A DNA stretch of 64,000 bases from an uncultured Clostridia bacterium. Its GTDB lineage: Bacteria; Bacillota; Clostridia; Oscillospirales; Ruminococcaceae. The stretch covers positions 149,511 to 213,510 of the forward strand of contig CANDVA010000002.1 of assembly GCA_947389015.1 (NCBI GenBank), written 5' to 3'. Shown in pieces: positions 28,854-49,918 of the stretch; within the stretch, counting starts at the first letter, position 1; every line of letters begins with the position of its first letter. The notes beneath the pieces were generated by a model, which saw only the letters and a program-made list of their open reading frames with translations, did no database searches and was not told the DNA's origin. The translations under genes and the position numbers were made by a program.

Positions 28854-29240
28854 TTAAGGAACCGAAATCTGAAACTGTCCCGCCGCCTTTATCTGAATAC
28901 AGCCCCCGAATGAGCATATAAGCTGTGACGAGTTGTTAAGCGCGGGCTGCCCGCCGATCAGAACGGTTGGACTTCCGGGCGCCCAAGGCGCGGTGGTTGC
29001 GGGCGTACACGGCATAGGAGTAAGCGCTCCGAGCGCGGCTGCCGTCGCTGCCGCAACCGCGGGGTTTGCCATTGAACTGCACATGGCAAACGGAAGAATA
29101 TTCACAAAAGGAACATTGTCCATAATATTCGCGACGGGCATAACGTTTGTTACCCGCGATTTTGGCAGCACCGTCATCGGCATTGGAGCCATACCGAAAC
29201 TGCACTGCAAAACCGCGCCTCCGCATACCAGTAGTCCCAT
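28854..29240 (-). CDS. PAAR-like protein (DUF4280), spike tip
   Basis: A 128-residue protein of the DUF4280/PAAR-like type. VCGGAVLQCSFGMAP at the front, a central alanine-rich stretch, and GSPTVLIGGQPALNNSSQLICSFGG near the end are the family's hallmarks. It should cap the gpV spike and be the first part to meet the target membrane, possibly carrying cargo. Equivalent in role to Afp10/Pvc10. Confidence 0.85.
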   Translation of the reverse strand: MGLLVCGGAVLQCSFGMAPMPMTVLPKSRVTNVMPVANIMDNVPFVNILPFAMCSSMANPAVAAATAAALGALTPMPCTPATTAPWAPGSPTVLIGGQPALNNSSQLICSFGGCIQIKAAGQFQISVP

Positions 29241-30461: not shown

Positions 30462-30475
30462 GATTCGACCCTCCA

Positions 30476-32877: not shown

Positions 32878-33512
32878 TTTTCGCCGCCCCCTAAATGAAC
32901 ATAATTCAAAGCGCATTTCCCGTCCAACGCTCCGCGGCGCGTGCCCGCAAGTACGGAATTTACGCCCAGATAGCAGTAATTATTAAGCTCCGTTATATTC
33001 GCCAGAAGTTTTATTTTTGCGGTAATATTGGCGGGCAATTGCGTTTCGATGATTTTCTCCAACACATCGGTCCTGCTTTTTGTAGGAGAACACAGTATCC
33101 ACACTGTAAACCGTCCTCCCGAATATAAGCGCGCAAGATCCTTAAAAGAGGAAAAGTAACGCTTTGCGTGACAGCACTCAACAACAAATACTTTCGAGTC
33201 ACAGTAAAGCTCCAGTAGCTCCGTCAATCCGCGGATCGTGCCCCGATACATACTCAAACGCGGTATTGCCAGCAAATACTCTCTTTTTTTATCGTTCGGA
33301 AAAAGATGCATATTTTCGGCGGAGATCCATTCCCCAAGCCATTCGACAAACTCCTCGGGACATTTTTCGGGATCGTATAGTACGGCGCTTTTGTCGATTT
33401 TATTTTCAAGCTCACAATAAATATCCGTGAATATCGAAAGAAATCTTTCGGTAAAACTGCCTGCCTTCAAATAAAGCTCGGGCAGATATTCAAGCGGATC
33501 GATCTTCTCCAT
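32874..33512 (-). CDS. Phage tail protein, gpI-like (TIGR02242 type)
   Basis: A 212-residue protein resembling the P2 gpI / TIGR02242 tail domain. Diagnostic segments: SFTERFLSIFTDIYCELENKID, then CPEEFVEWLGEWI and KKREYLLAIPRLSMYRGTIRGLTELLELY. It joins the baseplate and could attach peripheral fibres. It lies downstream of the two baseplate-J genes as in contractile phages. Confidence 0.85.
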   Translation of the reverse strand: MEKIDPLEYLPELYLKAGSFTERFLSIFTDIYCELENKIDKSAVLYDPEKCPEEFVEWLGEWISAENMHLFPNDKKREYLLAIPRLSMYRGTIRGLTELLELYCDSKVFVVECCHAKRYFSSFKDLARLYSGGRFTVWILCSPTKSRTDVLEKIIETQLPANITAKIKLLANITELNNYCYLGVNSVLAGTRRGALDGKCALNYVHLGGGEK

Positions 33513-34934: not shown

Positions 34935-34939
34935 AGCGA

Positions 34940-37309
34940 TCACCTGTTTTCATAAATAACCCTGATTTGCGGAGCGCCCGATCCAACGGGCAACATATCC
35001 GACAATTTGTAAAAAATTCTATTTTGAATATCTTCGGCACTTATCCCGCTCGCCGCTGTGACCTCAATATTCAGCGCTCCGCCGCAATCGGCAGATATCC
35101 GCGCCGATATAATATCTCCGCCGACCAACAGCTCCTCAAAATCCCTTTTTGTTATAGGGTGGTTTCGGTGCCGAAGTTCCCCCGCAAGCCGTGATTCCGT
35201 GTGAGAAGCGTCCTCGATGTCACAGCCGCCGATCATCGGAAAAGGATTTGACGCGCCGCAGACCGATCCGTCCGTGAGCGAGGGAACAAACTCCTGTCCC
35301 GCGGGAAGATTTCCCGCCGTCCCGCCGCCATAACGATATTTCAACCTAACTGTGCGGCTGTTCGGAGTTAAAGTCAGCGCGGGAAAAAAGCGGACGAGTC
35401 CCGCCGCCTTGTCAAGCGTCCAGCCGCTTTGCAGCGGCGCCCAATTTTCCTCTTGGTTTTTCTTGGCGGTATTTATGTAGATCTGCATTTCGAGTATGTT
35501 TTTTCGGTTAAGATCTATATTCTCTATGACACTGTCGGAGCAGAAGCTTTCTATCTCCTCCCGCTGCATAACGGGAACGCAGTTTAAAAGCAGATCGTCC
35601 AACGCGATATTTTCATTCCGAAAAAACTCGGCTTTGAGCCAATACGCCGTGCTTCCGAACAACGTGCTTTGTATTGGTGCAGTCAGCAGATTAAAACCGA
35701 AAAAACCCGTAAGCTCCTCTTTTGTCTGCGGTTTTACGCGCTCCCAGCCGCTGCCGGTAAACACGCTCCATTCGGCGCAATCAAGCTGACTTGACGGAAT
35801 GTCTCGGCACGCCAAAAGCGTAAAATTATGTACGGGACTATCGAGACCTATGTAAAGAGCGGATTCCGGAAGCCTCACAAACGGATAAGCGCGGGGAACC
35901 GAGCTTTTTTCGCAGTTATTTACGATCTCGATATCGGAAACCGAGATCGGTCTGTCAAATTTATAAGAGACGAGAATATTGTCAAGGCGTGGAAGATAAA
36001 TTTCCGCCGGAAGCGCATACGCGTTTTTTATTCTTTTGATCCTTACTCTTACGCACAAACGCTGAGACGCGCCTGTCAGCACGGGCGAGATATCCGACGG
36101 ACATACGAATTTTAATTCGTAATGTGATTTTTGGACAGCGGAGCCGTCTTTTCCAATTCCCGAAAAGATATCTTTGTATCCCTCAAGCTCACGGATCGCC
36201 GCAAAGCCCGTTCCGTTCCAGTATTCCCAAACCACCTCGTCAACGGTGACCTTTTTTCTCTCGGGTTCGCGAACATCGCTTTTTTTGACGAAGAGCTTAT
36301 TGGATATAACGGGCTCGGGCAGATCACCCAAAATAACCGTATCAAAATCAATATTAAGCGCAAGTGTGATTACCGCTCCCGATTTTGAAAATGCTGCGGT
36401 GCATTCAATATAAACCGAATCATATACGGCAGGTGCTTCCCCGAAAGCCAAAAAAACGTCGTCGGTCTCAAGCTCGCCGTTTACGAAAACATTGTCGGGC
36501 TTTATATTCCGCCCCTCGACAGCTATGTTTATTCCGCCGAAAAAAATACCTTCAAATTCGCCGATACTTTTTATCTCCGCTTTTATTTCATCACAGCTCG
36601 AAGCGGCTATTCTCAGCCTGCCTTTTTCATTAAAGCAACCGATCTCCGTTTCCCGACTGTCCGAAATTTGAACGAACCTCGCAAGCGAAGAATCGCTCAG
36701 CCTTTCCGCCCATCGCTCTCCGTCGATCCCGGAGATCGTCATATAAAGGCGACAATTCTCCGTCAGACCTCCGAGCAGTTTGTGCCTAAAGCTTAGATAT
36801 CTTTCATTTGAATTACCGCGAACAGACGGTTCAAAGATTTTTTCTTTTTCGTCCCAAAAACAAAGAAGATCACGATCGGGATCGGCGTATACCGTTTCTT
36901 TAACGCGCACCGAAGCTATCCAAGCGTTCTGCGTCGTTTCAAAAACAAGCCGAGTGCCTTGCTCATCAATAACAGGAGAAAAAAGCCCGAATCCCTCTTT
37001 CACAGGAACGCATTCTTTATTTATGCCGCTGAGCCTGAACTGCACATAACCCGACGCTGGTATCGCCGGAAGCGCCTCGGCACCGAGCATATTATAAAAT
37101 TCACGCCGATGATTAAGCGGCGTCCTATTGAATTTTTCTATGGTCTCTGCAGTTCGACGTGCAAAAACGCAGGCAAGCGCCGTTCCCGCGTCGGGATCAT
37201 CTGGCGAAAATTTCCACTCCGAAGTGTGCTTTTTTGCCAGTTGAACGATTTCCTCAATAATATCTCCGCAGCAGCGGTCGTCAATTTTCGGAACTTTATT
37301 ATAAGCCAC
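34940..37309 (-). CDS. Baseplate J-like protein 2 (Afp12-like)
   Basis: A 789-residue baseplate protein, the long member of the pair. It opens with CGDIIEEIVQLAKKHTSEWKFSPDDPDAGTALACVFA, the counterpart of the Asp-Pro-Gly opening in the shorter paralogue, and near its end has the J-like segment HRNHPITKRDFEELLVGGDIISARI. The start is a GTG at 37309 behind GAGGAGG; it overlaps the gp25 gene by 11 bases. Confidence 0.87.
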   Translation of the reverse strand: MAYNKVPKIDDRCCGDIIEEIVQLAKKHTSEWKFSPDDPDAGTALACVFARRTAETIEKFNRTPLNHRREFYNMLGAEALPAIPASGYVQFRLSGINKECVPVKEGFGLFSPVIDEQGTRLVFETTQNAWIASVRVKETVYADPDRDLLCFWDEKEKIFEPSVRGNSNERYLSFRHKLLGGLTENCRLYMTISGIDGERWAERLSDSSLARFVQISDSRETEIGCFNEKGRLRIAASSCDEIKAEIKSIGEFEGIFFGGINIAVEGRNIKPDNVFVNGELETDDVFLAFGEAPAVYDSVYIECTAAFSKSGAVITLALNIDFDTVILGDLPEPVISNKLFVKKSDVREPERKKVTVDEVVWEYWNGTGFAAIRELEGYKDIFSGIGKDGSAVQKSHYELKFVCPSDISPVLTGASQRLCVRVRIKRIKNAYALPAEIYLPRLDNILVSYKFDRPISVSDIEIVNNCEKSSVPRAYPFVRLPESALYIGLDSPVHNFTLLACRDIPSSQLDCAEWSVFTGSGWERVKPQTKEELTGFFGFNLLTAPIQSTLFGSTAYWLKAEFFRNENIALDDLLLNCVPVMQREEIESFCSDSVIENIDLNRKNILEMQIYINTAKKNQEENWAPLQSGWTLDKAAGLVRFFPALTLTPNSRTVRLKYRYGGGTAGNLPAGQEFVPSLTDGSVCGASNPFPMIGGCDIEDASHTESRLAGELRHRNHPITKRDFEELLVGGDIISARISADCGGALNIEVTAASGISAEDIQNRIFYKLSDMLPVGSGAPQIRVIYENR

Positions 37310-37706
37310 TGCCGCCCTCCTCAATATAAAACGGAAATACCAAATTATAAGGATTGTTTGTAGCCCTTACGACATAGCTTATATCAAGAACAATATGTCC
37401 TTCACGGGCAATATCGTCAATCGTAACCTCTATGTCGCTTATTCTCGGTTCGTGCAAAGTAAGCGCGTTCTTTATCTCCTCGATCATCTCGGAGCGAACG
37501 GATTGCGAAAAGGATTCAAAAGCGAAATCACACAGCCGACAGCCGAAATCGGGGCGCATGACGCGTTCGCCAAGCCTTGTGTTTAATATCAGCCGCACCG
37601 CCTGAGCAATGTCCTTTTCTCCGCCGCACATACGAATTCTTCCGGTAACGGGATCGGGCATGACCTCGAAGCTCCAGCCGTTCCCCAAAAAAGAATGATC
37701 GTCCAA
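37299..37706 (-). CDS. Baseplate wedge protein gp25/GPW family
   Basis: A 135-residue wedge protein. The gp25 signature is clear: DIAQAVRLILNTRLGERVMRPDFGC, then ALTLHEPRISDIEV. It links sheath initiation to the baseplate (Afp9/Pvc9 role). No ATG is available; a TTG at 37706 behind GGTGA fits family N-termini. Confidence 0.9.
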   Translation of the reverse strand: MDDHSFLGNGWSFEVMPDPVTGRIRMCGGEKDIAQAVRLILNTRLGERVMRPDFGCRLCDFAFESFSQSVRSEMIEEIKNALTLHEPRISDIEVTIDDIAREGHIVLDISYVVRATNNPYNLVFPFYIEEGGSGL

Positions 37707-37717: not shown

Positions 37718-38467
37718 CTAATTAAGTTTAAGAATACTGCCCTTGACATTTGTTGCTCCCGTGCTGCTCAGATCAAGCTGCGCGTTTGCGGATACGGAAA
37801 TTATCTGTCCGTTTAAATTCATCTGCATTCCCTTCAACGTAAGACCCTGCATTGCCTCTACCGACACACTGAGTCCTTTTACCGTAACGCTTTGGGAAGC
37901 TCCATCCAGACTTATCTCACAGGAACCGGATTTTATTTTGATCCCGGCCAGTCCCTTAAGTGTTAGAATACCGTTTTTTATTTCCGCGCTTGTTTGTCCC
38001 GTCGGATCGCTCAATTTTGCTGACAGACCCGTATCGCTGAGCTCCAGCTTCTGACCCGAGACAGATTTTATTTCTATGCCTTTCAGGTCATCGGCTTTTA
38101 TTTCATTCCCGAGCTTTGTCTTGATCTCCTTTATGTTATTTAAAGGTGTCATGGTCTCGGCAGGCGGCCGAGCCGTTCCGTTATACAGCGAGCCGATAAC
38201 TACGGGAGAATCGATCTCGCCGTCCAGAAACGCCACGACAACATGATCGCCGATATCCGGTAGGCTGTAAATTCCGCTTCCGCCTGAGGCTGCCGGCATA
38301 GCAACCTTTGCCCATGCGGTAACTCCCATACCGACAGGCTTTCCGCTCAACGAAACCTGAACGCAGGCGGGCTTCAACGGATTATAATTCGCGATAACGG
38401 TTCCCAGCATAATATATGGCTGTTTCGGATCATCATCCGTAAGCATATTAGCGATATCGTCTAGCAT
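37718..38467 (-). CDS. Baseplate assembly/spike protein gpV
   Basis: A 249-residue central spike. The N-terminal OB domain (VIANYNPLKPACVQVSL, WAKVAMPAASGGSGIYSLPDIGDHVVVAFLDGE) is of the gp5/gpV type, and the C-terminus is a run of short beta-helix turns (GIEIKSVSGQKLELSD, GLAGIKIKSGSCEIS). With the hub gene it corresponds to Afp8 split in two. Confidence 0.9.
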   Translation of the reverse strand: MLDDIANMLTDDDPKQPYIMLGTVIANYNPLKPACVQVSLSGKPVGMGVTAWAKVAMPAASGGSGIYSLPDIGDHVVVAFLDGEIDSPVVIGSLYNGTARPPAETMTPLNNIKEIKTKLGNEIKADDLKGIEIKSVSGQKLELSDTGLSAKLSDPTGQTSAEIKNGILTLKGLAGIKIKSGSCEISLDGASQSVTVKGLSVSVEAMQGLTLKGMQMNLNGQIISVSANAQLDLSSTGATNVKGSILKLN

Positions 38468-38509: not shown

Positions 38510-39592
38510 TCATTTCGTTGAGCCTATCTCAAACGATGTGATGTATCCGCCCGAAGAAAGATTGTGAGTTACTTCCTCAATGTAATAATCTCCGTCAAAA
38601 AAATTTTTGTCAAGTCCCGTAAGACGTATATACCGTCCCGGGATCATCTCGGGAATACCCACGCACCTTACCGTACCCGACGCCATATTGTCGCCCAGAT
38701 TATGCATACTTGCCGCCATGATGTTGATAAGATCAAGAGTGTTTTTTGCCGCGGAGGTGTCGACCTGAACCTTCGGGACTTGCGGCGTCGCCATCTTGTG
38801 AGGATACCCTTGCGGAGTCAGGATATTATCAGAAAAAAACGGCAAAAAGCTTAAAAGACCGCTCAGCGCTCCGCTTAATTTATTTGAGGAATAGCTTGTG
38901 GCGCGGTTAAAGCTTATTATGCTCTCACCCCATTTCAGGTGCATAAGCAACGCTGTATTCTGCCATTTTTTCCTGAAATAGCAATGTTCACCCAAAACAA
39001 AAAATTCGTAGCCTCTTTTCAGTCCGTAGTCATACAGATAATTAAAATCGCTGGTGTTCTGCCGAAAATCCTCAAGAATATTCCAGACGTCATAGTAAAC
39101 GATCTTCATATTCAGAATGGAGGTGTACATAAGCATGATCAGCGGTATCATAAGCGGAAAGCTTGCCACAGGAGGCATCGCGTTCAGCTTTCCCTGCATC
39201 ATCAACGAGCGTATGTCGCTGCAGGTGATCCGCGCGCCGGGGGGACTTCCGCTCTCGAATGTAAAGCTGATATCCGTCACAAAGCCCTTGAACATATAAA
39301 CAGGCGTTATATACCCCATTCCCGCTTCAACGGTTTGTCCCAGAGGAAAATTGTCGGCGATCTCGTCCTTGAAGCTGCCTGAAGCGATGTCGTAGCCGTT
39401 GTTTATCACAAACGTGCACGTTCCCGCCTTATTTTTTATGGTCTGGCGTATTTCCATTTCGGAAACGAAAAGTCCCAGTGTTTGGATGTCTGTGCCGCCC
39501 GCTTTAACAGCGCAGCACGGATTTCGGAAACCGCCGTATTTAGCCTTCAGTTCGGAGTAGCTGAAGGTATCGGAATTCATCAATTCTTTCAT
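38510..39592 (-). CDS. Baseplate hub protein, gpD/VgrG N-terminal type
   Basis: A 360-residue hub resembling phage late-control protein D. Segments such as YMFKGFVTDISFTFESGSPPGARITCSDIRSLMMQ, and the C-terminal GTVRCVGIPEMIPGRYIRLTGLDKNFFDGDYYIEEVTHNL, are typical. It should form the trimeric base of the spike. It overlaps the LysM gene by four bases (ATGA). Confidence 0.87.
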   Translation of the reverse strand: MKELMNSDTFSYSELKAKYGGFRNPCCAVKAGGTDIQTLGLFVSEMEIRQTIKNKAGTCTFVINNGYDIASGSFKDEIADNFPLGQTVEAGMGYITPVYMFKGFVTDISFTFESGSPPGARITCSDIRSLMMQGKLNAMPPVASFPLMIPLIMLMYTSILNMKIVYYDVWNILEDFRQNTSDFNYLYDYGLKRGYEFFVLGEHCYFRKKWQNTALLMHLKWGESIISFNRATSYSSNKLSGALSGLLSFLPFFSDNILTPQGYPHKMATPQVPKVQVDTSAAKNTLDLINIMAASMHNLGDNMASGTVRCVGIPEMIPGRYIRLTGLDKNFFDGDYYIEEVTHNLSSGGYITSFEIGSTK

Positions 39593-40233
39593 GGTTCTTT
39601 AAACGGCGGGAGCTGCAAAAGCTTTCCCACGGGCAGCTTTCTGGGATTGTATAATTTATTGAAGTCCGCGATAACTCTCCAATATTTCGGTTGTCCGTAT
39701 TCCGCGTCGGCTATTCGCCAAAGCTGTGCGCCTTTTTCCATACGGCGGGCTTTGGTACGGTTTGGGGATTCAAACGGTGAGCTTTTCCTTGCGCTGATCG
39801 TATCTTCATTGCTTTTAAAGGTAAGCTCCAGCCGCGCTCTGACGGGAATGCCGCTTGGCAAAAACATTGTGAAGCTCTGCTTCGCGTCGGTTATAATGCC
39901 CTTAAAAAAACAGCCGCCCCAACTGAACGCCGCCTTTGGAGGCGCGTGAAGCTTTCCGTCGATCCATAAAGCGCTCATGATAGGCTGAATGTAAACCCTC
40001 ACGTCGTCGGATGTTTTGCGGATATAATCGTTCTGCGTGTCGAAATGCAGCGTCAGATCAAGAGAGGTCTCGCCGCCGTTTATAAACTGCATTATCGGAC
40101 TGTCGGTGCCGGGAATATCCAGCTTCGCGTAATTTACGCTGCGGGAAATATTGTATTCGGCAGGATTAAACAGCACGGGTATCGTATTCATAACGCCGTT
40201 TTCACCGTAAATAATGATCTTTGCCTTTTCCAT
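39589..40233 (-). CDS. LysM-domain tube adaptor (Afp7-like)
   Basis: A 214-residue protein. The N-terminal part (VLFNPAEYNISRSVNYAKL, GGETSLDLTLHFDT) is the usual CIS tube-adaptor domain, and the C-terminus is a LysM fold (GAQLWRIADAEYGQPKYWRVIADFNKLYNPRKLPVGKLLQLP). In Afp/PVC the equivalent sits between tube and hub. Its ATG overlaps the previous stop by one base. Confidence 0.9.
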   Translation of the reverse strand: MEKAKIIIYGENGVMNTIPVLFNPAEYNISRSVNYAKLDIPGTDSPIMQFINGGETSLDLTLHFDTQNDYIRKTSDDVRVYIQPIMSALWIDGKLHAPPKAAFSWGGCFFKGIITDAKQSFTMFLPSGIPVRARLELTFKSNEDTISARKSSPFESPNRTKARRMEKGAQLWRIADAEYGQPKYWRVIADFNKLYNPRKLPVGKLLQLPPFKEP

Positions 40234-41558
40234 TAAAATATCCCCCTTTGCAGTTTTTCCAGGCTCCAGTCAAGCTGCTGTTTTCGGTTTACCCTATCCA
40301 GAACGTCTCTTACAATATCCTTGGTGCCGATTGCGCGCGGCGGCGTGGTTGACGCTGTTTCAATCCGGTTCAGTTTTGTTTTTATTTCGCGCTCAAAACG
40401 GCTGTAATCGTCCGCCTGTTCGGGGCTGCTTAATCGTGCGGTTCTCCTGTGATCGAGCCGTATGTGACCGTATTCGGGAACTATTTCCCTGTGGAGCAGG
40501 ATAATGCCTGCGGCAGACCTAAGGTCGTAATGCTTGTTTACGGCAATGCTTTTGCGGTTTCCCGCTTTATGGATATCGCTGAACAGACTTATCATACTGC
40601 TTCTGAGCTCAAGGTTACTTCCCGAAAAAGCTTTTCTTAACGCGCTTACAAGATTTTTCAGCGAACGGTTGTCGGAAAACATATTGCTTTCCGCGTTTCT
40701 TAACTCAACGCTTTTGTTCTCTTGATGAATGCGTGTTATAAGTTTTGAAAAGCTTCGGGAAAGCTCCATATTCTGACCGAGATAAACTTTCCACAGGGAA
40801 TTTGTCAGCCGCTGAAGCGTTTTCGCGTTACGATAGCTGTCGGCGCTGTAAAGATAAACTCCCGTTTCTATTCCCTCGTATATGCGCATAAGCAAAGGGG
40901 TCATTGAATTAAAATTCTCGGTAAATCGGGAAAATACGGAAGTGTTTTTTCCATAACTGTGGCTGACGGCGTTAGTGTGCCGATAGATCTCCCGTCTTCC
41001 TGTATTCACGACCGAAGTATTGCCATATCTTGAAAATAATTGCCCAAACAGAGAATGATCAATGCTGTTCAGAACGCCTATCATCTTTTTCTGTATCTGA
41101 ACGATATTTGACAGTCCCTCGAAATAAACGTCAAGCTCTGTTCCGTTTTTTTCGTTGATCGCTCTAATCAGTGTAAGAAGGCTGTGACTTAGCTGAAGAT
41201 TATTGCTTTTGTAAATGCTCCACAGCGCTTTTGTAAGCCGATTTAAGCCGTTGTACGACCTGAACAGGTTGTCCGACAAATAATCGAGTTTTCGTATTTT
41301 GCTTTTAGCATTATAAGAGCTGAAATCTCTGAAATATGCCGCAAGCCGATAGATCGACTCCGATCTGCAAAGCGTAATATTCACGCTGCTTTTTCCCATT
41401 CCCGACATATCGGTTTTCACCGCGTTACCGAGATAAATCATTTGCGGAAACGACAGGACGGGCACAATTTCATATCTGCCGACGCGGTTTTTACGGGTAT
41501 TTTTTCTCAAAGCCGCAGCGCTTATTTTTAACGGCTTTATAATACCGATTGGTCTCAT
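40233..41558 (-). CDS. Unrecognised protein with three internal repeats
   Basis: A 441-residue, basic, mostly helical protein in a structural position between the second tube gene and the LysM adaptor. Three copies of a motif of about 40 residues are visible at roughly 100-137, 245-282 and 297-333, sharing L-x-x-L-x-x-(A/S)-L-(W/R)-x-x-(Y/F)-x3-N-x-x-L-x-x-S-x3-L-(I/F)-x-x-I. Degenerate versions may occupy the stretches between. I know of no family for it. No long tape-measure gene exists in the operon, so a ruler or tube-filling role is possible. The start overlaps the tube gene stop (ATGA). Confidence 0.6.
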   Translation of the reverse strand: MRPIGIIKPLKISAAALRKNTRKNRVGRYEIVPVLSFPQMIYLGNAVKTDMSGMGKSSVNITLCRSESIYRLAAYFRDFSSYNAKSKIRKLDYLSDNLFRSYNGLNRLTKALWSIYKSNNLQLSHSLLTLIRAINEKNGTELDVYFEGLSNIVQIQKKMIGVLNSIDHSLFGQLFSRYGNTSVVNTGRREIYRHTNAVSHSYGKNTSVFSRFTENFNSMTPLLMRIYEGIETGVYLYSADSYRNAKTLQRLTNSLWKVYLGQNMELSRSFSKLITRIHQENKSVELRNAESNMFSDNRSLKNLVSALRKAFSGSNLELRSSMISLFSDIHKAGNRKSIAVNKHYDLRSAAGIILLHREIVPEYGHIRLDHRRTARLSSPEQADDYSRFEREIKTKLNRIETASTTPPRAIGTKDIVRDVLDRVNRKQQLDWSLEKLQRGIF

Positions 41559-41968
41559 AACTCGTATATCCCGTTGTGTTCTATAACGGCTTTGTCGATC
41601 ATAACTCCTCCGTTTTGAGCGTCCAGCTCGGATATCTCCCACGAAACGATAAGTCCCGAATCAAAAGCAAAAATCCTCAACGGTTCATTGCCCTTTTCCT
41701 TTATAATGATACTGCACGGCTGAGATATCCTTGTGCCTGCTCTGAAACCGTCGCTTCCGATAAAGGGATTAAAATAACCGTGCCCCTTTTCAAAGGTAAT
41801 TCTGCCCGCTTTGTTTTTTGAACCTATTACGGGGTACGGATATAGCTGTCCGCCCTCGTAAATATATTCGGGCTCAACACTTCCGCCTATTCCCGAAATT
41901 TTCTGAAAGCCCGCGTTAAGCGGACCTATCGTTACAAAAAAGGAGTAAACGTTCAAAAGCTTATGCAC
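41555..41968 (-). CDS. Tube-like protein 2 (Afp5-like)
   Basis: A 137-residue member of the gp19/Afp5 tube family. It opens NVYSFFVTIGPLNAGFQKISGIGG, continues with EYIYEGGQLYPYPVIG and ends NGGVMIDKAVIEHNGIYEL, the pattern of the short tube or tube-initiator protein. A GTG at 41968 behind AAGGTG is favoured; a GTG at 41977 would add three residues. Confidence 0.85.
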   Translation of the reverse strand: MHKLLNVYSFFVTIGPLNAGFQKISGIGGSVEPEYIYEGGQLYPYPVIGSKNKAGRITFEKGHGYFNPFIGSDGFRAGTRISQPCSIIIKEKGNEPLRIFAFDSGLIVSWEISELDAQNGGVMIDKAVIEHNGIYEL

Positions 41969-41973
41969 TGCGA

Positions 41974-42159
41974 TCACCTTATTTCAAAAATATTCTCTTT
42001 CCCGTCGGATGAAAGCTCTGCGTGGATATCGGAAATGCAGCCGCACCATTGACGCCTTACACAGTGCGGCATAAGAAGTATCTCATCCTGCTGCCAATGG
42101 AAATAATATGCGATAAACGCGGCTTCCTTGTAAAGCTGTTCGACCGGCGTTCGGGTCAT
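41974..42159 (-). CDS. DUF6760-like small eCIS protein
   Basis: 61 residues: MTRTPVEQLYKEAAFIAYYF, then HWQQDEILLMPHCVRRQWCG. This matches the small conserved protein (DUF6760 as I recall) placed between tube genes in eCIS loci, probably an assembly factor comparable to the second half of a phage tail chaperone. Its ATG overlaps the preceding stop. Confidence 0.8.
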   Translation of the reverse strand: MTRTPVEQLYKEAAFIAYYFHWQQDEILLMPHCVRRQWCGCISDIHAELSSDGKENIFEIR

Positions 42160-42527
42160 TCGTCCCTCAGAAAAAAATTTACGGGAAACTCCGCTTCTTC
42201 GCCGCACTTGGGGCAGACCGCCTTATAAACGGGAGTCTCGCTTTGGTTTATTCTCTGATACAGATCCTGCAAATAGGCCAGATCGGCGGTAAACAACTTT
42301 TCAATGATTTTCGTATTTACCTGCGGAAGCGTGCCCAGCTTCGTTATCACTCTAGAAAGAATGATAACCGTAAGATAAGCGGGATTTTGCTGCACCTTTA
42401 TATCGCTCATAGGCAGAATCTCATCTGCCGCGCAGGCAAGCCGCATTATACCTCGCTTGTGAAGAGTTCCGCCCTCGTCCGCGTAGCCGTAAGGCAGCTC
42501 AAATTCATATTCCGTTTGTATTAGCAT
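42156..42527 (-). CDS. Tail assembly protein (chaperone-like)
   Basis: A 123-residue protein: LPYGYADEGGTLHKRGIMRL, MSDIKVQQNPAYLTVIILSRVITKLG and FTADLAYLQDLYQRINQ are typical of the conserved eCIS gene before DUF6760. The C-terminus has a single CPKCGEE zinc-knuckle half, so a metal site would need dimerisation. Together with the next gene it may play the tail-chaperone part. Confidence 0.78.
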   Translation of the reverse strand: MLIQTEYEFELPYGYADEGGTLHKRGIMRLACAADEILPMSDIKVQQNPAYLTVIILSRVITKLGTLPQVNTKIIEKLFTADLAYLQDLYQRINQSETPVYKAVCPKCGEEAEFPVNFFLRDE

Positions 42528-42555: not shown

Positions 42556-42987
42556 TTACATTGTTCTTGTCATACCCTCGTGCGCAAGCTCAAGGGTCTC
42601 GATAGCGACCTCTGAGGAAGTCGCATTGAAATCGGGAACGGTATATTTGCATGGCCACGCGTTTATGATCTGCCATGAGGCACAGTCGGCAGCCGATTCG
42701 TCAATTGCCGTAATGGTCACGGTTTTGCGGCTTACGGGACCGTTTACACCCTCCATAAGCCAATCGTAAAGAACAGTAGACGAGGTCAGCCCCCATTTAA
42801 GCGTCACATTTCCGTATTTTCTGAGACCCTGCACCTTCATGGGCGTCGGAACCATATCGCCCTCGCGGTATTCGACAACGTCGATAGAAGCGTCAAATCC
42901 CGTTACCTCGCTGAAGCCACCCGCGTCAAGCCCGTCGATTTCAAGACGATACCGAAATTTGGTGTACGGATATACAATATCAGCCAT
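42556..42987 (-). CDS. Inner tube protein (gp19/Hcp type)
   Basis: A 143-residue major tube protein. FRYRLEIDGLDAGGFSEVTGFDASIDVVEYREGD, RKYGNVTLKWGLTSS and WQIINAWPCKYTVPDFNATSSEVAIETLELAHEG are the standard features of eCIS tube subunits (Afp1). Hexamer rings of it form the channel that carries cargo. Confidence 0.94.
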   Translation of the reverse strand: MADIVYPYTKFRYRLEIDGLDAGGFSEVTGFDASIDVVEYREGDMVPTPMKVQGLRKYGNVTLKWGLTSSTVLYDWLMEGVNGPVSRKTVTITAIDESAADCASWQIINAWPCKYTVPDFNATSSEVAIETLELAHEGMTRTM

Positions 42988-43003: not shown

Positions 43004-44728
43004 TCATTCTTCCGAAGAAGTTCTTTGAGTGATACGGAATATCACAAATTCCGCCGGCTTTACGGGAGCAACTCCGATGACGCATATAAGCCGTCCGTTG
43101 TTTATATCGTCCTGCGTCATGGTCTCTCTGCCAACGTTTACGAAAAAAGCCTCGGCGGGAGAACCGCCCGCGAGAGCGCCGCTTCTCCATACCGTATTAA
43201 GGAAAACGTCTATCGTCCTTTTTACTCGAACCCATAACAGCTCGTCGTTAGGCTCGAAAACGACCCAGTTCGTATTTGCCTTAATTGATTCCTCCAGATA
43301 AATAAACAGGCGTCTTACGTTGACATATTTCCATGAGGAATTGGAGCTTACCGTTCTTGCGCCCCATACCCTTATTCCCTGTCCCGGGAAAAATCTTATT
43401 AGATTTACGCCCTTGGGGTTGAGAATGTCCTGCTCGCCTTTATTGTACATACAATCAAGTCCTACGCAGGCGCGTATCGTTTCATTCGCGGGAGCCTTAT
43501 GTACGCCTCTTGAATTATCGCTTCTGGCAAAGATACCCGCCACCGAGCCGGACGGCGGAATGGCTGTGTTCTTCTTTGCAAGCGGGTCGAAGATTTCTAT
43601 CCACGGGTGATATAAAGCAGCGTAGCTTGAATCGAAAATATTTCTGTGAGCGACAACGTCGTCGATTTTCTGACTTCCGCGCGGCAGATCCAGCACCGCA
43701 AAACGGCTTGCCAAGCTCTCGCAATGAGCGACCAGACTTAGCTGAACGTTCGGATCCGTAACGCCGGGAACGGCAATTATACTTACAACGTCGTTATCGA
43801 TAAAGCTCTGGATCCCCGTACGCTTTCCGGGACCGTTGTCCGCCCCGATAAAGTCCGCCGCGCTTAATGCGTCCTTTGTGCCGTCAGAGCCGCCGTCCAT
43901 GCCTATAACAAGTATGTCCTTATCCTTTCCCGCGACGATCTCAAAAGTCGAACACAACGTTTCGGATTCGGGTATTTCAACGCTCACGTCCAAGAGATCC
44001 GACTTTGCCATTTTATTTTTTATGTAGCTTGACGAGCGGAGATTAAGGCTTACGTTCTCATACAGTTCTACCGCGTCCTCATATTTGACCTCAACATTGA
44101 ATTCGCAAGTATATATCACTTTCGAGGGCAAAATATCCGTATCGGTGACATCACCGTTAAAAGCACTCGTAAAACTCAGCAGATTATCCTGCACCGAGGA
44201 GATTTTATTGTACTGTATCTCATTTCCGTCGAAGAATGCAGCGATATCTCCCGTTTGAAAGCCAACGGCGTTTTTGACCTTATATACCGTCCCCTGAACG
44301 AGTTCCTCGGCACTTAATATCTGCGTTTTTGCCTTTGATGACGGAGTAATGATAATTCTGATAAAATTTCCCCATTTCCCGGGGTCTTTCGCGGTGAATT
44401 TAAGAATATTCTGCTCAGAAACGCTCTGAGCGCATTTTGCGTCCGGCGGCGTAACCCTCATAATAAAAGCTCTTGTTCCGCCATTGATAAAAAAATGCTC
44501 CACAGCATACGACAGAAAACGATAATCCTCAAATTCCGCCTGCGACAGATAGCCGCCGTACTTCCGCTTGAAATCAGCAAAATTGGTTACAAGCTGCGGA
44601 GTACCTTTGTCCGATCCCTTTACGCTGAGTCCGATAAATCCTGCCGTGCTTGTTCCCACACCCTCCATGGGCTTGGAACCCGATTCAAATTCTTCAACGT
44701 ATACTCCGGGTGATAAATATTCCGGCAT
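43004..44728 (-). CDS. Contractile tail sheath protein
   Basis: A 574-residue sheath. It opens MPEYLSPGVYVEEFESG, has the central VYLSLVAHCESLASRFAVLDLP-like core at VQLSLVAHCESLASRFAVLD, and ends with the strongly conserved sheath domain (RIWGARTVSS, FVFEPNDELLW family block as WVVFEPNDELLWVRVKRTID, FFVNVGRETMTQDDINNGRL). Only one sheath gene is present, unlike the three of Afp. It supplies the contraction stroke. Confidence 0.95.
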   Translation of the reverse strand: MPEYLSPGVYVEEFESGSKPMEGVGTSTAGFIGLSVKGSDKGTPQLVTNFADFKRKYGGYLSQAEFEDYRFLSYAVEHFFINGGTRAFIMRVTPPDAKCAQSVSEQNILKFTAKDPGKWGNFIRIIITPSSKAKTQILSAEELVQGTVYKVKNAVGFQTGDIAAFFDGNEIQYNKISSVQDNLLSFTSAFNGDVTDTDILPSKVIYTCEFNVEVKYEDAVELYENVSLNLRSSSYIKNKMAKSDLLDVSVEIPESETLCSTFEIVAGKDKDILVIGMDGGSDGTKDALSAADFIGADNGPGKRTGIQSFIDNDVVSIIAVPGVTDPNVQLSLVAHCESLASRFAVLDLPRGSQKIDDVVAHRNIFDSSYAALYHPWIEIFDPLAKKNTAIPPSGSVAGIFARSDNSRGVHKAPANETIRACVGLDCMYNKGEQDILNPKGVNLIRFFPGQGIRVWGARTVSSNSSWKYVNVRRLFIYLEESIKANTNWVVFEPNDELLWVRVKRTIDVFLNTVWRSGALAGGSPAEAFFVNVGRETMTQDDINNGRLICVIGVAPVKPAEFVIFRITQRTSSEE

Positions 44729-44753: not shown

Positions 44754-45419
44754 TTATTTCAACACGTCGTCGGCCCGAACTCTGACGGCATTTATACCGC
44801 TTTCATCGTAAAGTCTGACTGCCGCCGTGCCGACAAAAGGCTTTTCTATGGGTACACTCGCTTTAATGTACAGATCGAATGCGGGCAGCATTACGGAGTG
44901 TTCCGCGCTGTAATCATTTGCAATCTTTTTTACAAAATAATCGGTCATAAGAGCGTTTTCCGCTTTTTCAAGAACGACAAATTCCTCCGCGCCCGAACTT
45001 GTGTCCAGAAGAAGAAAACCTCTTCCCTCAAGACAAAACCGATATGGATTTTCGGCAATGATATGCTTATCTCCCGCTTTGACCGACTTGCTGAGATAAA
45101 AATATCCGTATTCAAGCGCCGCCCTGCCATATGACTGAATATTGAGCCAAACAGCCGTCTTTCTCGGAGGCGGAACCCTGCGTATAAGATTTACGCGAAT
45201 AACTTCTTTTTCGGGACTTGCGCGGTACTCGCAGTCATAATAAATATCCGATCTTATTGAAAGCGTAAATTCGTTCGGCAGCTCCTTTGCGGCTATGTAA
45301 AATCCGCCGCTCTTGCATACGGGATAAAAACGCTTTTCGTCGGCATAGAAACGCAGCTTGTCCTCCGCGGGAACAAACCCAAACGTATCTATACACTGAA
45401 TTTTCAGCGATACCTTCAT
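44754..45419 (-). CDS. eCIS-associated hypothetical, carboxypeptidase-regulatory-like
   Basis: A 221-residue protein without an assignable family. The first 80 residues (IQCIDTFGFVPAEDKLRFY, KSGGFYIAAKELPNEFTL) follow the pattern of carboxypeptidase-regulatory-like beta domains that form the second half of Afp16/Pvc16. Since the preceding gene supplies only the DUF4255 half, the two may together equal one cap protein. AGGGAGAG precedes the ATG, which overlaps the previous stop. Confidence 0.5.
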   Translation of the reverse strand: MKVSLKIQCIDTFGFVPAEDKLRFYADEKRFYPVCKSGGFYIAAKELPNEFTLSIRSDIYYDCEYRASPEKEVIRVNLIRRVPPPRKTAVWLNIQSYGRAALEYGYFYLSKSVKAGDKHIIAENPYRFCLEGRGFLLLDTSSGAEEFVVLEKAENALMTDYFVKKIANDYSAEHSVMLPAFDLYIKASVPIEKPFVGTAAVRLYDESGINAVRVRADDVLK

Positions 45420-45985
45420 AACTCTCTCCCTTGAGGCTTTTGCGTGGTCTGAATATCCGCTGCCGACGTTCCCGAAACAGCTTCTCCTACAAGCGCCGAC
45501 ACCTCGATAGGGGTTACGCAAAAGCCCACGGATAGCCTATACGGAGTGTTGCCGACGCTTCGGATATTTGACATTTCCTCCGGCGTCAGATCAAGCATCT
45601 GAAGCTGAAGCTTGTCGATATATGTTCCGGGTCTGAAGCCAAGCTCGCTCTCCGTCAATACGGGAGTGTTCAGCAGCGTTTCAGCGGCGCGGAACAGAAT
45701 ATTATGCTCCTCCTGTGTTTTGCGCGCGTCCTCCGCCTTGCTGTACGCGGTCATAAGATAATAAAGTGTCAGGAAGTGCGGAGCCTGCTCGCGAAAGCCG
45801 CTGCCCTTTTGTATAAGCGGCTGAGGAGTGATGTCATAGCATGGACGTATACCGTAAAGGTACAGCCCGAGCATAAGATCGCGCGGTTCGTCGGGTGTGC
45901 ATATCCCGACGCGCCCCGTGCCCGGGAACAGCTCAAAGAGCGAACGGGAGAAATGATTTATCAAGGCAATTTCGAGATTATGCAT
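45416..45985 (-). CDS. DUF4255 tail terminator/cap protein (Afp16-like)
   Basis: A 189-residue protein with the DUF4255 pattern: LYLYGIRPCYDITPQPLIQKG, HFLTLYYLMTAYSKAEDARKTQEEHNILFRAAETLLNTPVL, and PYRLSVGFCVTPIEV near the end. The family caps tube and sheath and sets particle length in Afp. The C-terminal 25 residues are a flexible Thr/Gln-rich tail. Confidence 0.87.
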   Translation of the reverse strand: MHNLEIALINHFSRSLFELFPGTGRVGICTPDEPRDLMLGLYLYGIRPCYDITPQPLIQKGSGFREQAPHFLTLYYLMTAYSKAEDARKTQEEHNILFRAAETLLNTPVLTESELGFRPGTYIDKLQLQMLDLTPEEMSNIRSVGNTPYRLSVGFCVTPIEVSALVGEAVSGTSAADIQTTQKPQGREL

Positions 45986-45994: not shown

Positions 45995-46930
45995 TTAATC
46001 GTCCACCTCCTCAACGCGAGGTCCGCGATCTCCGCCTTCATCCGCATCGTTATAACCAATTCCTTGACGACCCGCGTTCTCGAAGCCCCTTTCGCTTTCC
46101 GTATAAGCTTTATTTGCTCTGGAAAGGGCATTCCTGACATTTTTGTCCTTTATAGCTTCAACATTGATATTATCCAAGCTTACTTCCTCCAGTTCCCCCA
46201 TAGCAACCGCTTTATCTTTAGCTGCCGTAAAGTTTCTCTTAATTTTAGACTTCTGCTTTACCGCATCTGCAAAAGCGGTTCTTTGGTCATCATACGAGCC
46301 GCCGGCAGAAGCATTAATCATCGCGGCGATCTGATCTTCCCGCGCCTCGCAAGTCGCGTCGGCATATTTTTCGATCTCCTCAATATATCTGTGCTTGCGG
46401 TCATTGTGCTTTGTATACAAGAAGCTCCCTATACCGCCCGCTATGCCCAGCATACCCACAAACGACGAACCGAATCCCGCCCATGCGTTATAGGATTCTT
46501 GGGTATCGACGCCTGCCCTCTGCACGACCCCGCCGTCTGAAAACTTAGCCTGAACGGGAGAAGTGCCAAGCTGCGTATCCGTTTGAGCCGCCGCGGCGAT
46601 CATATCCGCACCGTCTTCCATAGCCTCGTCGTCGTTTAGCGGCAGCCCGCCCATTTTGCCGGTCGGTCTCACTATATCGCTTTTCTGTTGAACGACGTGA
46701 CCAAGCTCGTGCGGGAGGTGCTTCTCCTGCCCGGGAGCGACATATACCTCGTTCCCCTGTGTATAGGCGTGAGCGTGGAGCTGCGCGGGCTTTTCCGAAT
46801 TGTAATGAACTCTTACGTCGTCGAACGAAAAACCGCTCGAATTCTCAAAGCTCACTTTCATTCTGCGCGGAATACCCGTTTTATCCTTTTTGCAAGCTGT
46901 TCTTTCGGTTCTTTCCGCATACGTATTCAA
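45995..46930 (-). CDS. DUF4157 protein with metalloprotease-like motif
   Basis: A 311-residue protein. Residues 25-110 are a DUF4157 domain (FDDVRVHYNSEKPAQLHAHAYTQG, then APGQEKHLPHELGHVVQQK) with HELGH as zinc site. After VVQRAGVD (about 155) comes a different module: a hydrophobic helix (about 172-190, GMLGIAGGIGSFLYT) and a charged helical domain. DUF4157 proteins accompany eCIS loci as cargo or cargo handlers, so the C-terminus may be the payload. Start is TTG at 46930, overlapping the ATPase stop, behind AGGTGG. Confidence 0.85.
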   Translation of the reverse strand: MNTYAERTERTACKKDKTGIPRRMKVSFENSSGFSFDDVRVHYNSEKPAQLHAHAYTQGNEVYVAPGQEKHLPHELGHVVQQKSDIVRPTGKMGGLPLNDDEAMEDGADMIAAAAQTDTQLGTSPVQAKFSDGGVVQRAGVDTQESYNAWAGFGSSFVGMLGIAGGIGSFLYTKHNDRKHRYIEEIEKYADATCEAREDQIAAMINASAGGSYDDQRTAFADAVKQKSKIKRNFTAAKDKAVAMGELEEVSLDNINVEAIKDKNVRNALSRANKAYTESERGFENAGRQGIGYNDADEGGDRGPRVEEVDD

Positions 46931-48807
46931 ATCGGATCACCACCTAAATTTATTTTCTTATAATCGATATCAGGAAACGCGAGACCGAATTTCTCATATT
47001 CATATTTCAACGCTGATATGATATGCCGCATTGAAAGCGCAGAGCCCTCCGCGAGAACGGCAGCGAAAAGCGCCGTCCATTTTATCTCGGCAGGCGACAT
47101 ATCAAAAGCACCCGCCAGAAAATCGAAATCAATATCCTCACACAGCAGAGCTTCGGGAATAAATTTGCGCCACAACGCCGCACGTGCCGCCGCATCGGGC
47201 TTCAGAAATTCTAAAGTAAAATGCAGCCGCCTTTTGAACGCGGGATCAATATTCCCCTCAAGATTGGTCGCAAGCACTACTATACCGCCGTATTCCTCCA
47301 TTTTTTGAAGCAGATGAGCAGTCTGCGCGTTGGCGTGACGGTCATGGGAATCCGAGACGTCCGTGCGCTTCGCAAACAAGGAATCCGCCTCGTCAAAAAA
47401 CAGCAAACAATTATTCTCCTCCGCTTTTTGAAACACCTCGGAAATTCGTTTCTCCGTTTCGCCTATATATTTATCCTCGATACGGCTCAGGTCTACCCGC
47501 ATAACGTCCAGACCCAGCTCCGCAGCCAGAATATAAGCGGACATGGTTTTGCCGGTTCCCGAAGCGCCGTAAAATAATACGCCCAGACCTCTGCCATATG
47601 GAAACAACTTTTCAAAGCCGTATCGTTCAATAAGGCTGGGAAGGCTTTCGGCGGTTCTGATAATACGCTTCAGCGTTTCGGTTATATAGTCCTGCGCAAC
47701 CAGATCCTCAAGACGGAACATGGGGTGTATCAGTTTGCAAATGGGACTTTCACTGTTCAGAGACAGTATCGTTTCCATAAGCTTTTTGATATCCGCAGGT
47801 CTCGAAGAATTTCTTTTGCAGACCTCCGCGATCTCTCCGACCGTCAAACGGTAGCGCTCCGCAAGTAACCGAGTGTCAATATCCGCACCGTCAAGATAAT
47901 ATTTCCATGCTTTCAAACGCGTGGCTTTATCCGGAGGTGATACTTTCAAAAGAAAACAGCTTCTATCCCATAATCTTATCTGATCCTCTTCCGAATTTAC
48001 GCAAATAAAAACGATAGGCAGCATAACCGAAAGCATATTCACAAGACTTACGGCTTTTTTAACATCTTCATCGGCCAACACTACGGGAACACTGTCCGTT
48101 AATATACATGCCCCCGTCAGTTCTCCGACAAACTCGTCTATATTTTTTGTATTATCAACGAAGACCTCGGCGATATTCTTTCCGAAAGAGCCGCAAATCT
48201 GCGAAGCAAGGGTTCGTCTTCCGCTTCCTATCCTGCCGTTTATGACAACACAGGATAATGCGTTCGGCGATATATGGTCAACGCCGTATCCATACAGATC
48301 ACTGTACAACAAAGGGAGCTTATCCGAAAAAAATTTAAAGGATATATTCGGAATTGAAATGTCGTTTCCGATAATAAAATTGAATAAAAAGTTTTTCAGC
48401 TTGAAACGCCGTGCCGTTTCACATCCTTCCTCCATATCAAAAAGATATTGGATCGGCTTTTCGGCGAGCATGGACAAATATACGTTCTCGCTTTCAATAA
48501 ACGGATAATGTGAGACCGCCGCCAAAAATGTCGGAGCTTGTCCGTTACCCTCGAGCGCCGAGGAAATACCGAGCATTACGCAGAAATATACAAATCCCGA
48601 AAGCGCAAATTTCTTGCGCACAACAACCATTGGCAAAACCGCTTCTGGCGTCATGTCCTCGCATACTCTCAAACGGTCAAGCTCGTTCATCAAATTATCG
48701 GTATTCACGGTCTCAAAACACAAGCGAATGATCCGACATATATCCGATATATGCTCAAATGAATTGCAATAGGGTTTTGACCTCGTCCAATTATTATTTG
48801 TATCCAT
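46927..48807 (-). CDS. AAA+ ATPase of the injection system (Afp15-like)
   Basis: A 626-residue ATPase, first gene of the operon. Two AAA modules are visible. The first (about 190-330) is degenerate: the P-loop reads GRIGSGRRT, lacking the lysine. The second (about 390-560) is intact: Walker A GASGTGKT, Walker B LLFFDEADS, sensor 1 VVLATNLEGN and arginine finger AFKRRLHF. In Afp/PVC the homologue is needed for assembly or cargo loading. GAGGCG precedes the ATG. It lies 23 bases from the invertible promoter segment. Confidence 0.93.
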   Translation of the reverse strand: MDTNNNWTRSKPYCNSFEHISDICRIIRLCFETVNTDNLMNELDRLRVCEDMTPEAVLPMVVVRKKFALSGFVYFCVMLGISSALEGNGQAPTFLAAVSHYPFIESENVYLSMLAEKPIQYLFDMEEGCETARRFKLKNFLFNFIIGNDISIPNISFKFFSDKLPLLYSDLYGYGVDHISPNALSCVVINGRIGSGRRTLASQICGSFGKNIAEVFVDNTKNIDEFVGELTGACILTDSVPVVLADEDVKKAVSLVNMLSVMLPIVFICVNSEEDQIRLWDRSCFLLKVSPPDKATRLKAWKYYLDGADIDTRLLAERYRLTVGEIAEVCKRNSSRPADIKKLMETILSLNSESPICKLIHPMFRLEDLVAQDYITETLKRIIRTAESLPSLIERYGFEKLFPYGRGLGVLFYGASGTGKTMSAYILAAELGLDVMRVDLSRIEDKYIGETEKRISEVFQKAEENNCLLFFDEADSLFAKRTDVSDSHDRHANAQTAHLLQKMEEYGGIVVLATNLEGNIDPAFKRRLHFTLEFLKPDAAARAALWRKFIPEALLCEDIDFDFLAGAFDMSPAEIKWTALFAAVLAEGSALSMRHIISALKYEYEKFGLAFPDIDYKKINLGGDPI

Positions 48808-48830: not shown

Positions 48831-48858
48831 ATACAACATAATGTCGATTATGTTGTAT
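48831..48858. repeat. Left recombination site of the inverton
   Basis: 28 bp: arm ATACAACATAAT, core GTCG, and the perfect reverse complement of the arm. The reverse complement of this whole site equals the right site at 27 of 28 positions; only the asymmetric core (GTCG against CGAC) shows the orientation. This is the structure of a tyrosine recombinase crossover site. Confidence 0.92.
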
Positions 48859-48942
48859 TGCATCTTTAAAGCAGAGCAGGAAAATGTAAAAAAACACAAA
48901 ATCCAATCGTTTTTTTTGTTAAATCAGACAGAAAAATAACTC

Positions 48943-48971
48943 TTGACATAAGGCGCTTTTTATGATATAAT
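48943..48971 (+). promoter_or_regulatory. Consensus promoter inside the inverton
   Basis: -35 TTGACA (48943-48948), exact 17-base spacer, -10 TATAAT (48966-48971). Perfect match to sigma-A consensus, oriented away from the operon in this sequence. Confidence 0.9.
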
Positions 48972-49001
48972 ATATGTAATAAAAAGTATGCTTGTGCATA
49001 A

Positions 49002-49029
49002 ATACAACATAATCGACATTATGTTGTAA
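49002..49029. repeat. Right recombination site of the inverton
   Basis: Arm ATACAACATAAT, core CGAC, arm ATTATGTTGTAA; one mismatch to the left site in reverse orientation (last base). Its outer arm encodes the final codons and stop (49019-49021) of the recombinase, and since the arm is the same after inversion the protein would not change. Confidence 0.92.
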
Positions 49030-49858
49030 CTATGAGGTTAAGTCGTTCGATCTGACGGGCATGTGTCTGCCCACTTTCAACCGTGTAGATGCGTGTCGTA
49101 TTTACATTGGAATGACCGAGAATATCGGCAAGACGCGACAAATCTTTTTCTAGTGAGTAGTAGGTTCTCGCAAACAAGTGCCTTAAATTATGAGGGAAAA
49201 CTTTTTCGGGGGAAACTACTGTTAAGACGGATAGCTTTTTCATATCTCGCCATATGTTAGAACGGTCTAAATTTTTCCCGTTCCTTGTAATAAACACCGC
49301 TCCGGCGGTGATTTTTTGTTTTTGAATAAATTTTTTCAACAGTTTGCAAAGCTGTTGCGGAAGAAAAACGGTACGGAGTTTGCCCTTGCACTTAATTTCC
49401 GCGCGTCCCGTTTCAACCGATTCGACCGTAATAAACTTTAGCTCGGAGACCCGTATTCCGGTGGCGCAGATCGTTTCCACTATCAGCATCAATCTTTCGT
49501 TTTTCTGCTGCTTTGCAGCTTTGATCAGACGCAGATACTCATTACGGCAAAGCTCCTTTTCTTCGGGAACGAACAGTGCGCGCTGTATTTTAAAAGGCTT
49601 GACCCTAAGATCGGCGCAGCCGATAAACTTAAGAAATCCGTTGACGGCAGCGAGCATGGAATTGGCGCTTGAGGCAGCATAACGTTCACCCAAAAGCAGC
49701 TTGAAGTCAATGACAAGTTGCTTATTGATCGCTCGTTTGTCTACAAATTCAATAAAAAACCTTGTGTCATGAATATATTTTGAAATCGTATATGAGCTTC
49801 GCTCCTGCTCGATCAGATGTTTTTTGTAATCGGATATTTTTTTTTCAAGTACTGACAT
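49019..49858 (-). CDS. Tyrosine recombinase, probable inverton switch enzyme
   Basis: A 279-residue XerC/D-type recombinase. N-terminal SAM-like core-binding domain (about 1-90, YTISKYIHDTRFFIEFV) and catalytic domain with Arg in ATGIRVSE, Lys in CKGKLR, His-x-x-Arg in HNLRHLFA, His in LGHSN and the nucleophilic Tyr in TRIYTVE. The ATG at 49858 follows GGAGGAAAT; an earlier ATG at 49873 has no such site. Its stop lies inside the right recombination site, tying enzyme and switch together. Its own promoter lies at 49889-49918. Confidence 0.93.
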   Translation of the reverse strand: MSVLEKKISDYKKHLIEQERSSYTISKYIHDTRFFIEFVDKRAINKQLVIDFKLLLGERYAASSANSMLAAVNGFLKFIGCADLRVKPFKIQRALFVPEEKELCRNEYLRLIKAAKQQKNERLMLIVETICATGIRVSELKFITVESVETGRAEIKCKGKLRTVFLPQQLCKLLKKFIQKQKITAGAVFITRNGKNLDRSNIWRDMKKLSVLTVVSPEKVFPHNLRHLFARTYYSLEKDLSRLADILGHSNVNTTRIYTVESGQTHARQIERLNLIVTT

Positions 49859-49888: not shown

Positions 49889-49918
49889 ATTTTAACATAT
49901 TTTAAGAAAATATGACAA
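49889..49918 (-). promoter_or_regulatory. Promoter of the recombinase gene
   Basis: Minus-strand -35 TTGTCA (49913-49918), 18-base spacer, -10 TAAAAT (49889-49894). It lies outside the inverton, so the recombinase stays expressed in both states. Confidence 0.6.

Follow-up and report, generated by a model that had tools for sequence, protein, structure and literature searches.

We hold with good confidence that a short DNA segment between a tyrosine recombinase gene and a contractile injection (eCIS) operon is a dedicated switch flipped by the recombinase, and that its promoter reads either the eCIS operon (ON) or, in antisense, the 3' end of the recombinase gene (OFF). The segment lies in a stretch of 64,000 nucleotides of clostridial DNA, called the window here. 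The element is conserved and switch-like, and it is very likely a phase-variation switch for the eCIS. The switch and its surroundings comprise the following features; G004, G013 and G029 are other genomes of the same genus.

48832..48857, no strand: left inversion site, TACAACATAAT-GTCG-ATTATGTTGTA, on the operon side; identical in G004, G013 and G029
48881..48931, no strand: two conserved blocks forming an imperfect dyad, AACACAAAAT ... TTTTTGTT, upstream of the -35, from the four-genome alignment
48943..48971, plus strand: extended sigma-70-type promoter, TTGACA-17-TATAAT with TG before the -10, 12/12, directed away from the operon (OFF)
49003..49028, no strand: right inversion site, the left-site sequence reversed; the recombinase gene ends in it, final codons and stop included
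49019..49858, minus strand: tyrosine recombinase, 279 aa, XerC/D-like (Pfam PF00589 and PF02899)
49889..49918, minus strand: predicted recombinase promoter, TTGTCA-18-TAAAAT, 10/12, with TG before the -10
24586..24616, minus strand: intrinsic terminator, a 14-bp stem followed by a T-run; likely the operon end

The initial annotation described two 28-bp sites in inverse orientation, alike at 27 positions, with 143 bp between them, and direct sequence comparison agrees: 48831-48858 and 49002-49029 form an inverted repeat that matches at 27 of 28 positions across that distance. The longest perfect inverted arm is 28 nt, compared to a maximum of 15 nt in 300 first-order Markov simulations of 48300-49700, and the match is far above chance expectation. 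Taken as 26-bp sites, the repeats lie 171 bp apart, start to start, and enclose 145 bp. Each site (TACAACATAAT-GTCG-ATTATGTTGTA) is nearly palindromic, and as a result its direction is given only by the 4-nt core GTCG. A tyrosine recombinase site is expected to consist of two binding arms and a short crossover region, and a near-palindrome with an asymmetric core fits this. The genome of the window holds one such pair only, with up to two mismatches allowed. The inverted repeats surround a promoter, as in an inverton, the promoter being called by consensus.

This promoter, on the plus strand at 48943-48971, is indeed the perfect TTGACA-17-TATAAT pointing off the operon that had been claimed, and in the assembled orientation it runs antisense to the recombinase 3' end. 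Perfect 12/12 promoters number four in the 64-kb window with the segment promoter included; two more of them diverge from each other, at 13846 (minus strand) and 14052 (plus strand). The segment promoter scores 11/12 (TTGACA-17-TACAAT) in each of G004, G013 and G029. That no other convincing promoter faces the operon, a further claim, was upheld for 48807-49858, the interval it could be granted for, in which the minus-strand matches are weak (9/12). One of these (48998-48969, minus strand, 9/12) would face the operon in the OFF state and was set aside; it falls below 9/12 in G029 and G004, and the segment of G013 has a different weak 9/12 match on the minus strand. The dyad at 48881-48931 is a possible regulator site, judged from its conserved blocks. 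It is A/T-rich and was rejected as a terminator, its RNA fold being no better than that of shuffles on either strand.

The recombinase gene starts at 49858, as judged by its ribosome-binding site and by relatives. It was said to abut the right site; it does neighbour the site, with its stop codon (49019-49021) actually lying inside, and the last codons of the recombinase therefore belong to the switch. We take R136, K160, H223, R226, H249 and Y258 to be the catalytic set of the enzyme. All six residues are present and occupy the same columns in a paralogue from G029 (45% identity), so that a site-specific recombinase with a presumably intact active site stands next to the repeats. The ratio dN/dS is 0.07-0.12 (six pairs, four genomes); by this measure the gene, which is unbroken, is under purifying selection. 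A second close relative of the recombinase was not found in the window's own genome. Just upstream of the gene, at 49990-50400, the translations contain broken fragments that by eye resemble an adenylation domain, an acetyltransferase and a radical-SAM protein.

The genes downstream of the left site are listed below in the order in which they would be transcribed.

46927..48807, minus strand: AAA ATPase, first operon gene (PF00004, 7.6e-29)
45995..46930, minus strand: eCIS_core domain protein (PF13699, 2.3e-12)
45416..45985, minus strand: Pvc16_N protein (PF14065, 1.3e-15)
44754..45413, minus strand: conserved 219-aa protein, no family match; start set from relatives
43004..44728, minus strand: contractile sheath (PF04984 and PF17482)
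42556..42987, minus strand: inner tube protein (PF06841, 7.6e-43)
42156..42527, minus strand: tail assembly chaperone-like (phrog_508, 1.3e-07)
41555..41977, minus strand: second tube protein (PF06841, 2.6e-07)
40233..41642, minus strand: conserved protein, up to 469 aa, no family match
39589..40233, minus strand: CIS_tube protein (PF19266, 3.8e-30)
38510..39592, minus strand: tail protein (phrog_52, 2.2e-11)
37718..38467, minus strand: spike, Phage_base_V (PF04717, 1.7e-14)
37299..37706, minus strand: gp25 baseplate wedge (PF04965, 4.2e-22)
34940..37324, minus strand: putative baseplate assembly protein (TIGR02243, 5.1e-12, under its cut-off)
33531..34943, minus strand: Baseplate_J (PF04865, 7.3e-10)
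32874..33512, minus strand: Tail_P2_I (PF09684, 2.5e-06)
31216..32916, minus strand: CIS13-family-like protein (NF053767, 4.6e-25, under its cut-off)
30476..31267, minus strand: conserved protein, 263 aa, no family match
29244..30476, minus strand: MORN-repeat protein (PF02493, 4e-25)
28854..29240, minus strand: DUF4280 protein (PF14107, 1.1e-33), presumably PAAR-like
26283..28841, minus strand: 852-aa protein with HAMP match (PF00672, 9.5e-10); kept in G004 and G011
25231..26244, minus strand: possible last operon gene, 337 aa, no family match

The first gene begins with an ATG at 48807, 23 bases past the left site, the gap that had been claimed. Genes for sheath, tube, baseplate, spike, cap and AAA ATPase are gathered in one minus-strand cluster; the Pfam matches bear out the eCIS identity of the operon, which is known here from its genes. 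Phage head, packaging and T6SS membrane genes were not found among the 23 operon ORFs in family searches (Pfam throughout, with NCBIfam for nine and PHROGs for ten). The initial annotation counted 23 genes and called the system complete. The count is better given as about 22-24: 23 ORFs were scanned, the last of them is doubtful, and a small ORF at 41974-42207 lies outside the scan. The ORF at 24568-25149 (193 aa) overlaps the terminator at 24616-24586 and hence is probably no gene. As to completeness, the core parts are present, and a tail fibre and a tape measure are without confident assignment; the search for these two yielded the CIS13-like match under its cut-off and the 852-aa HAMP-matching protein.

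A related sheath is found in 19 of 43 genomes of the genus, six of them at least 95% identical and 13 more distant; the distant ones, whole or in large pieces, are mostly 61-72% identical. The six closer genomes share the eCIS operon, of which the contigs of G012 and G013 hold just the first five genes. In four of the 43 genomes (the window's, G004, G013 and G029) the order recombinase-switch-eCIS is kept. Across these four the 26-bp site is the same in each of its eight copies, and the intervening DNA is 73-81% alike. The four eCIS-linked recombinases form one tree group with full support, which makes a single capture the simplest history; the tree contains one unreliable row, L154, apparently frameshifted. 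The eCIS switch is OFF in all four assemblies, and neither an ON copy nor inversion was seen in them.

The other two genomes with the closer sheath, G011 and G012, no longer have the promoter segment, and of the recombinase they retain fragments; the eCIS operon is kept as far as the contigs reach. The single leftover site carries four substitutions in G011 and two in G012. Farther upstream, beyond the recombinase remnant, both have the promoter-like TTCAAA-17-TATAAT. Decay of the site together with a kept operon is what would be expected if the recombinase maintains the site and a fixed promoter can drive the operon.

The same two genomes bear on an improbable alternative, according to which the segment does invert, read-through from the recombinase promoter mainly drives the operon, and the inner promoter is an antisense brake, so that inversion tunes the level of expression. 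Read-through is possible because no convincing terminator was found between the recombinase and the operon; the two are co-directional, a 10/12 promoter precedes the recombinase, and in G011 and G012 the operon persists with the shared promoter-like sequence upstream of the recombinase remnant. However, the segment promoter is nearer to consensus, at 11/12 even in the three relatives, and the operon starts just past the left site, which favours the inner promoter as the one that reads the operon.

Two further observations were made in the genus. G029 has a second, paralogous switch with a recombinase 45% identical and 25-bp sites (L037 5669-5757 and L038 1-97), where two contig ends carry one promoter-and-site stretch with one mismatch. 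A population with both orientations might explain the pair, as might a duplication; because of the single-base difference between the copies, and because a gene's 3' end forms one of the flanks, the pair was not counted as evidence for both orientations. In three genus genomes (G032:C39, G033:C129 and G039:C25) the assembly is interrupted close to where another sheath gene starts, and short pieces that overlap lie on different contigs; a repeat or a variable end of the sheath might explain this.

The recombinase is a member of a large clostridial family (L078-L154) with inverted-repeat pairs at the 3' end, and many of the members sampled precede GGDEF, response-regulator or EAL genes. In a protein search, 60 of the 120 clusters shown were at least 78% identical, the window's own included, and thus the clade recurs in public sequence sets. 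The family was sampled by searching named genome contigs with the recombinase and taking the best 80 of 133 confirmed relatives; three of these loci, L075-L077 (G004, G029 and G013), are eCIS loci. An inverted-repeat pair lies at the recombinase 3' end in 71 of the 80 loci, compared to 2 of 186 random places in the same loci (0 of 186 at a score of 18 or more); among the nine loci without a pair, five end within ~80 bases of the recombinase and one is N-masked. The near repeat reads ACATAA-N(4-8)-TTATGT, with at most two substitutions, in 66 of the 71 loci; the other five repeat calls are without this family form, and some may be wrong pairs. In 33 of 71 it starts no later than the final base of the stop codon.

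Promoter-like sites are present in 47 of 68 family segments and in 263 of 1360 shuffled ones (19%), three of the 71 loci being left out for inner segments >320 bp. The better promoter points toward the recombinase in 35 segments and downstream in 11, with one tie and 21 without a call. The 46 one-way calls hence comprise 11 ON and 35 OFF, and the OFF set includes three of the four eCIS loci. In four pairs of related loci the two members hold the segment in opposite orientations. L101 and L102 have identical flanks (400 and 200 nt) and an inverted segment that is 99.6% identical. The flanks are 90% and 99% alike for L135/L139 and about 90% alike for L087/L089, whose segment is 74% alike; for L134/L138 the left flank alone is alike. 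These flipped pairs show that inversion of segments next to this recombinase family occurs in nature. L101 and L102 are titled Fournierella and Gastranaerophilales, yet their flanks are identical, so one of the contigs is likely mis-binned.

It is quite unlikely, more so than the read-through account, that the sites are a relic locked OFF in a lineage where inversion has ceased. The eCIS loci are OFF in four of four cases, against 11 ON and 35 OFF among 46 family loci, but four successive OFF calls are not rare at an ON rate of 24%. Moreover, the recombinase is intact and under purifying selection, and the site, invariant in its eight copies, has acquired substitutions in the genomes that lost the recombinase. 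A further reading, hardly credible, is that recombinase and sites were left behind by an integrating element whose attachment sites flank the operon start by chance. The enzyme is in the integrase superfamily, and broken gene fragments, recognized by eye, lie just upstream of it. Against this, the sites are inverted rather than direct, with a start-to-start distance of 171 bp; the same arrangement is found elsewhere beside unrelated downstream genes and with flipped segments; and viral contigs searched by site, recombinase and sheath gave no relative.

The recombinase-flipped switch thus stays our reading. The original proposal, an invertible promoter switching the eCIS, gained from the conservation of the element, from site decay without the recombinase and from the flipped family relatives; its part on inversion at this very locus did not gain in the same way, four of four copies being OFF. 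Against the switch model stand the OFF state of all four eCIS loci, the possible read-through from the recombinase promoter, the two sister genomes without the switch, and the nature of the promoter calls, which are consensus matches: 19% of shuffled family segments reach the family-wide threshold, and 21 of 68 real ones have no call.

Switches of this family seem to serve various genes. The first downstream genes at 57 loci include 14 GGDEF, 10 response-regulator domain and three EAL genes, the tally omitting L075 and L077 (eCIS) and loci without an ORF of at least 120 aa within 900 nt. Signalling genes are the commonest cargo among the sampled downstream genes and eCIS an unusual one; eCIS genes like those of the window follow L075, L076 and L077 only (up to four downstream ORFs, 71 loci). 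Searches for other eCIS switches and for ON copies gave the following. A site-pattern search of 396 genomes of the taxonomic family matched 20, the window's included, and in 16 of the 19 others a member of the recombinase family, whole or fragmentary, lies within 1.5 kb of the examined site. No eCIS genes were found near the family-type sites in one 1.5-3 kb locus from each of these 19 genomes, and eCIS genes farther away are possible. G265 carries a site pair on one contig and a sheath on another, and the 12-13 kb taken from each showed no link between them. In the same genome, two family-type sites (L236, 506-531 and 806-831) are in direct, not inverted, orientation, adjoined by a recombinase fragment at a contig start. 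Upstream of other sheath genes, no recombinase of the window's type was found in 33 stretches (from 12 genus genomes out of the 13 that have a distant sheath, and from 21 of the other genomes of the taxonomic family with a sheath match), of which at least seven are cut short by contig ends. The 281-base switch region met OFF copies only, and no ON copy, in the 43 genus genomes, nor was an ON copy of the eCIS switch present on named genome contigs among the best 80 of 133 recombinase relatives.

The molecular mechanism may be pictured as follows. The adjacent tyrosine recombinase would swap strands at the 4-nt site cores and so flip the strong predicted promoter between the operon (ON) and the antisense strand of the recombinase 3' end (OFF). 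If inversion is reversible at the eCIS locus with the dominant cells OFF, and if the promoter is active and a single transcript extends to the terminator at 24.6 kb, the population would be mixed, with few cells ON. In the ON state transcription would begin some 75-80 nt ahead of the AAA ATPase gene, giving a leader that bears the site hairpin, the fold of which has a z-score of -2.2 (4 of 200 shuffles are equally good). In the OFF state the antisense RNA could damp recombinase expression and thereby hold that state, and a regulator may act additionally in the ON state through the conserved blocks upstream of the -35. With less assurance, we lean toward the view that eCIS production is a heritable coin toss in which most cells are OFF, that two sister species escaped it via deletion and a fixed promoter, and that this is the first such eCIS.

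A report of an eCIS under an invertible promoter was not found among the literature matches listed, in part the best 15-20 of 38-962; subscription papers lie outside that search and absence is thus unproven. In the excerpts of PMC8987985, the one match that recurred, the terms occur in separate places, with injection systems in the reference list alone, and the excerpts of an eCIS review (PMC10598620) mention DNA inversion for tail fibres only. PMC11892184 and PMC5903667 gave no relevant match for injection, secretion or phage-tail terms. If true, the present case would be the first in which an invertible promoter governs an eCIS. It would bear on the open question of how cells decide to build costly, sometimes suicidal injection machines: since the predicted decision is written in DNA, reads from any metagenome with the species would suffice to count the ON fraction. 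The two sister genomes without the switch are natural objects of comparison. The recombinase family at large would provide a set of clostridial switches in which inversion is testable, and Anaerotruncus colihominis DSM 17241, Eisenbergiella tayi DSM 26961 and Hungatella hathewayi WAL-18680 are among the named, cultured strains that have family members.

With the Afp/PVC gene sets, which serve here for comparison of eCIS, the operon shares sheath, tubes, eCIS_core, Pvc16_N, gp25, Baseplate_J and AAA ATPase. In contrast to Afp/PVC, it is clostridial and headed by the AAA ATPase and the switch, with fibre and tape measure lacking an assignment. The closest clostridial parallel for the switch itself involves RecV, a tyrosine recombinase that serves several distant sites. 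According to excerpts of PMC7446863, PMC5386303 and PMC9286219, RecV inverts the flagellar switch before flgB in C. difficile, where several sequences invert. Compared by these descriptions only, RecV inverts, and the recombinase here would invert, an element ahead of a large operon in a clostridial host, whereas the one here adjoins the sole site pair detected in its genome and its cargo is an eCIS. The known cargo of invertible promoters in gut bacteria is mostly capsule, fimbria and resistance genes. Such promoters are reportedly the subject of Jiang et al. 2019. As in the gut-bacterial examples excerpted from PMC8748976, the promoter here would be flipped between inverted repeats near a recombinase; unlike them it has an eCIS as cargo, for which the literature searched held no precedent. 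The Fim switch of E. coli is similar in design, with a tyrosine integrase that inverts a short stretch ahead of a multi-gene operon for a surface structure, but fimS, in the excerpt of PMC9993118, is 314 bp and controls fimbriae, while the segment here is about 145 bp and its cargo is an injection machine. DNA inversion also acts on a contractile injection system in the R-tailocins of Pectobacterium and Xenorhabdus, where, in the excerpts of PMC10598620, inversion and module exchange alter the specificity of the fibres; inversion here would instead alter whether the machine is made.
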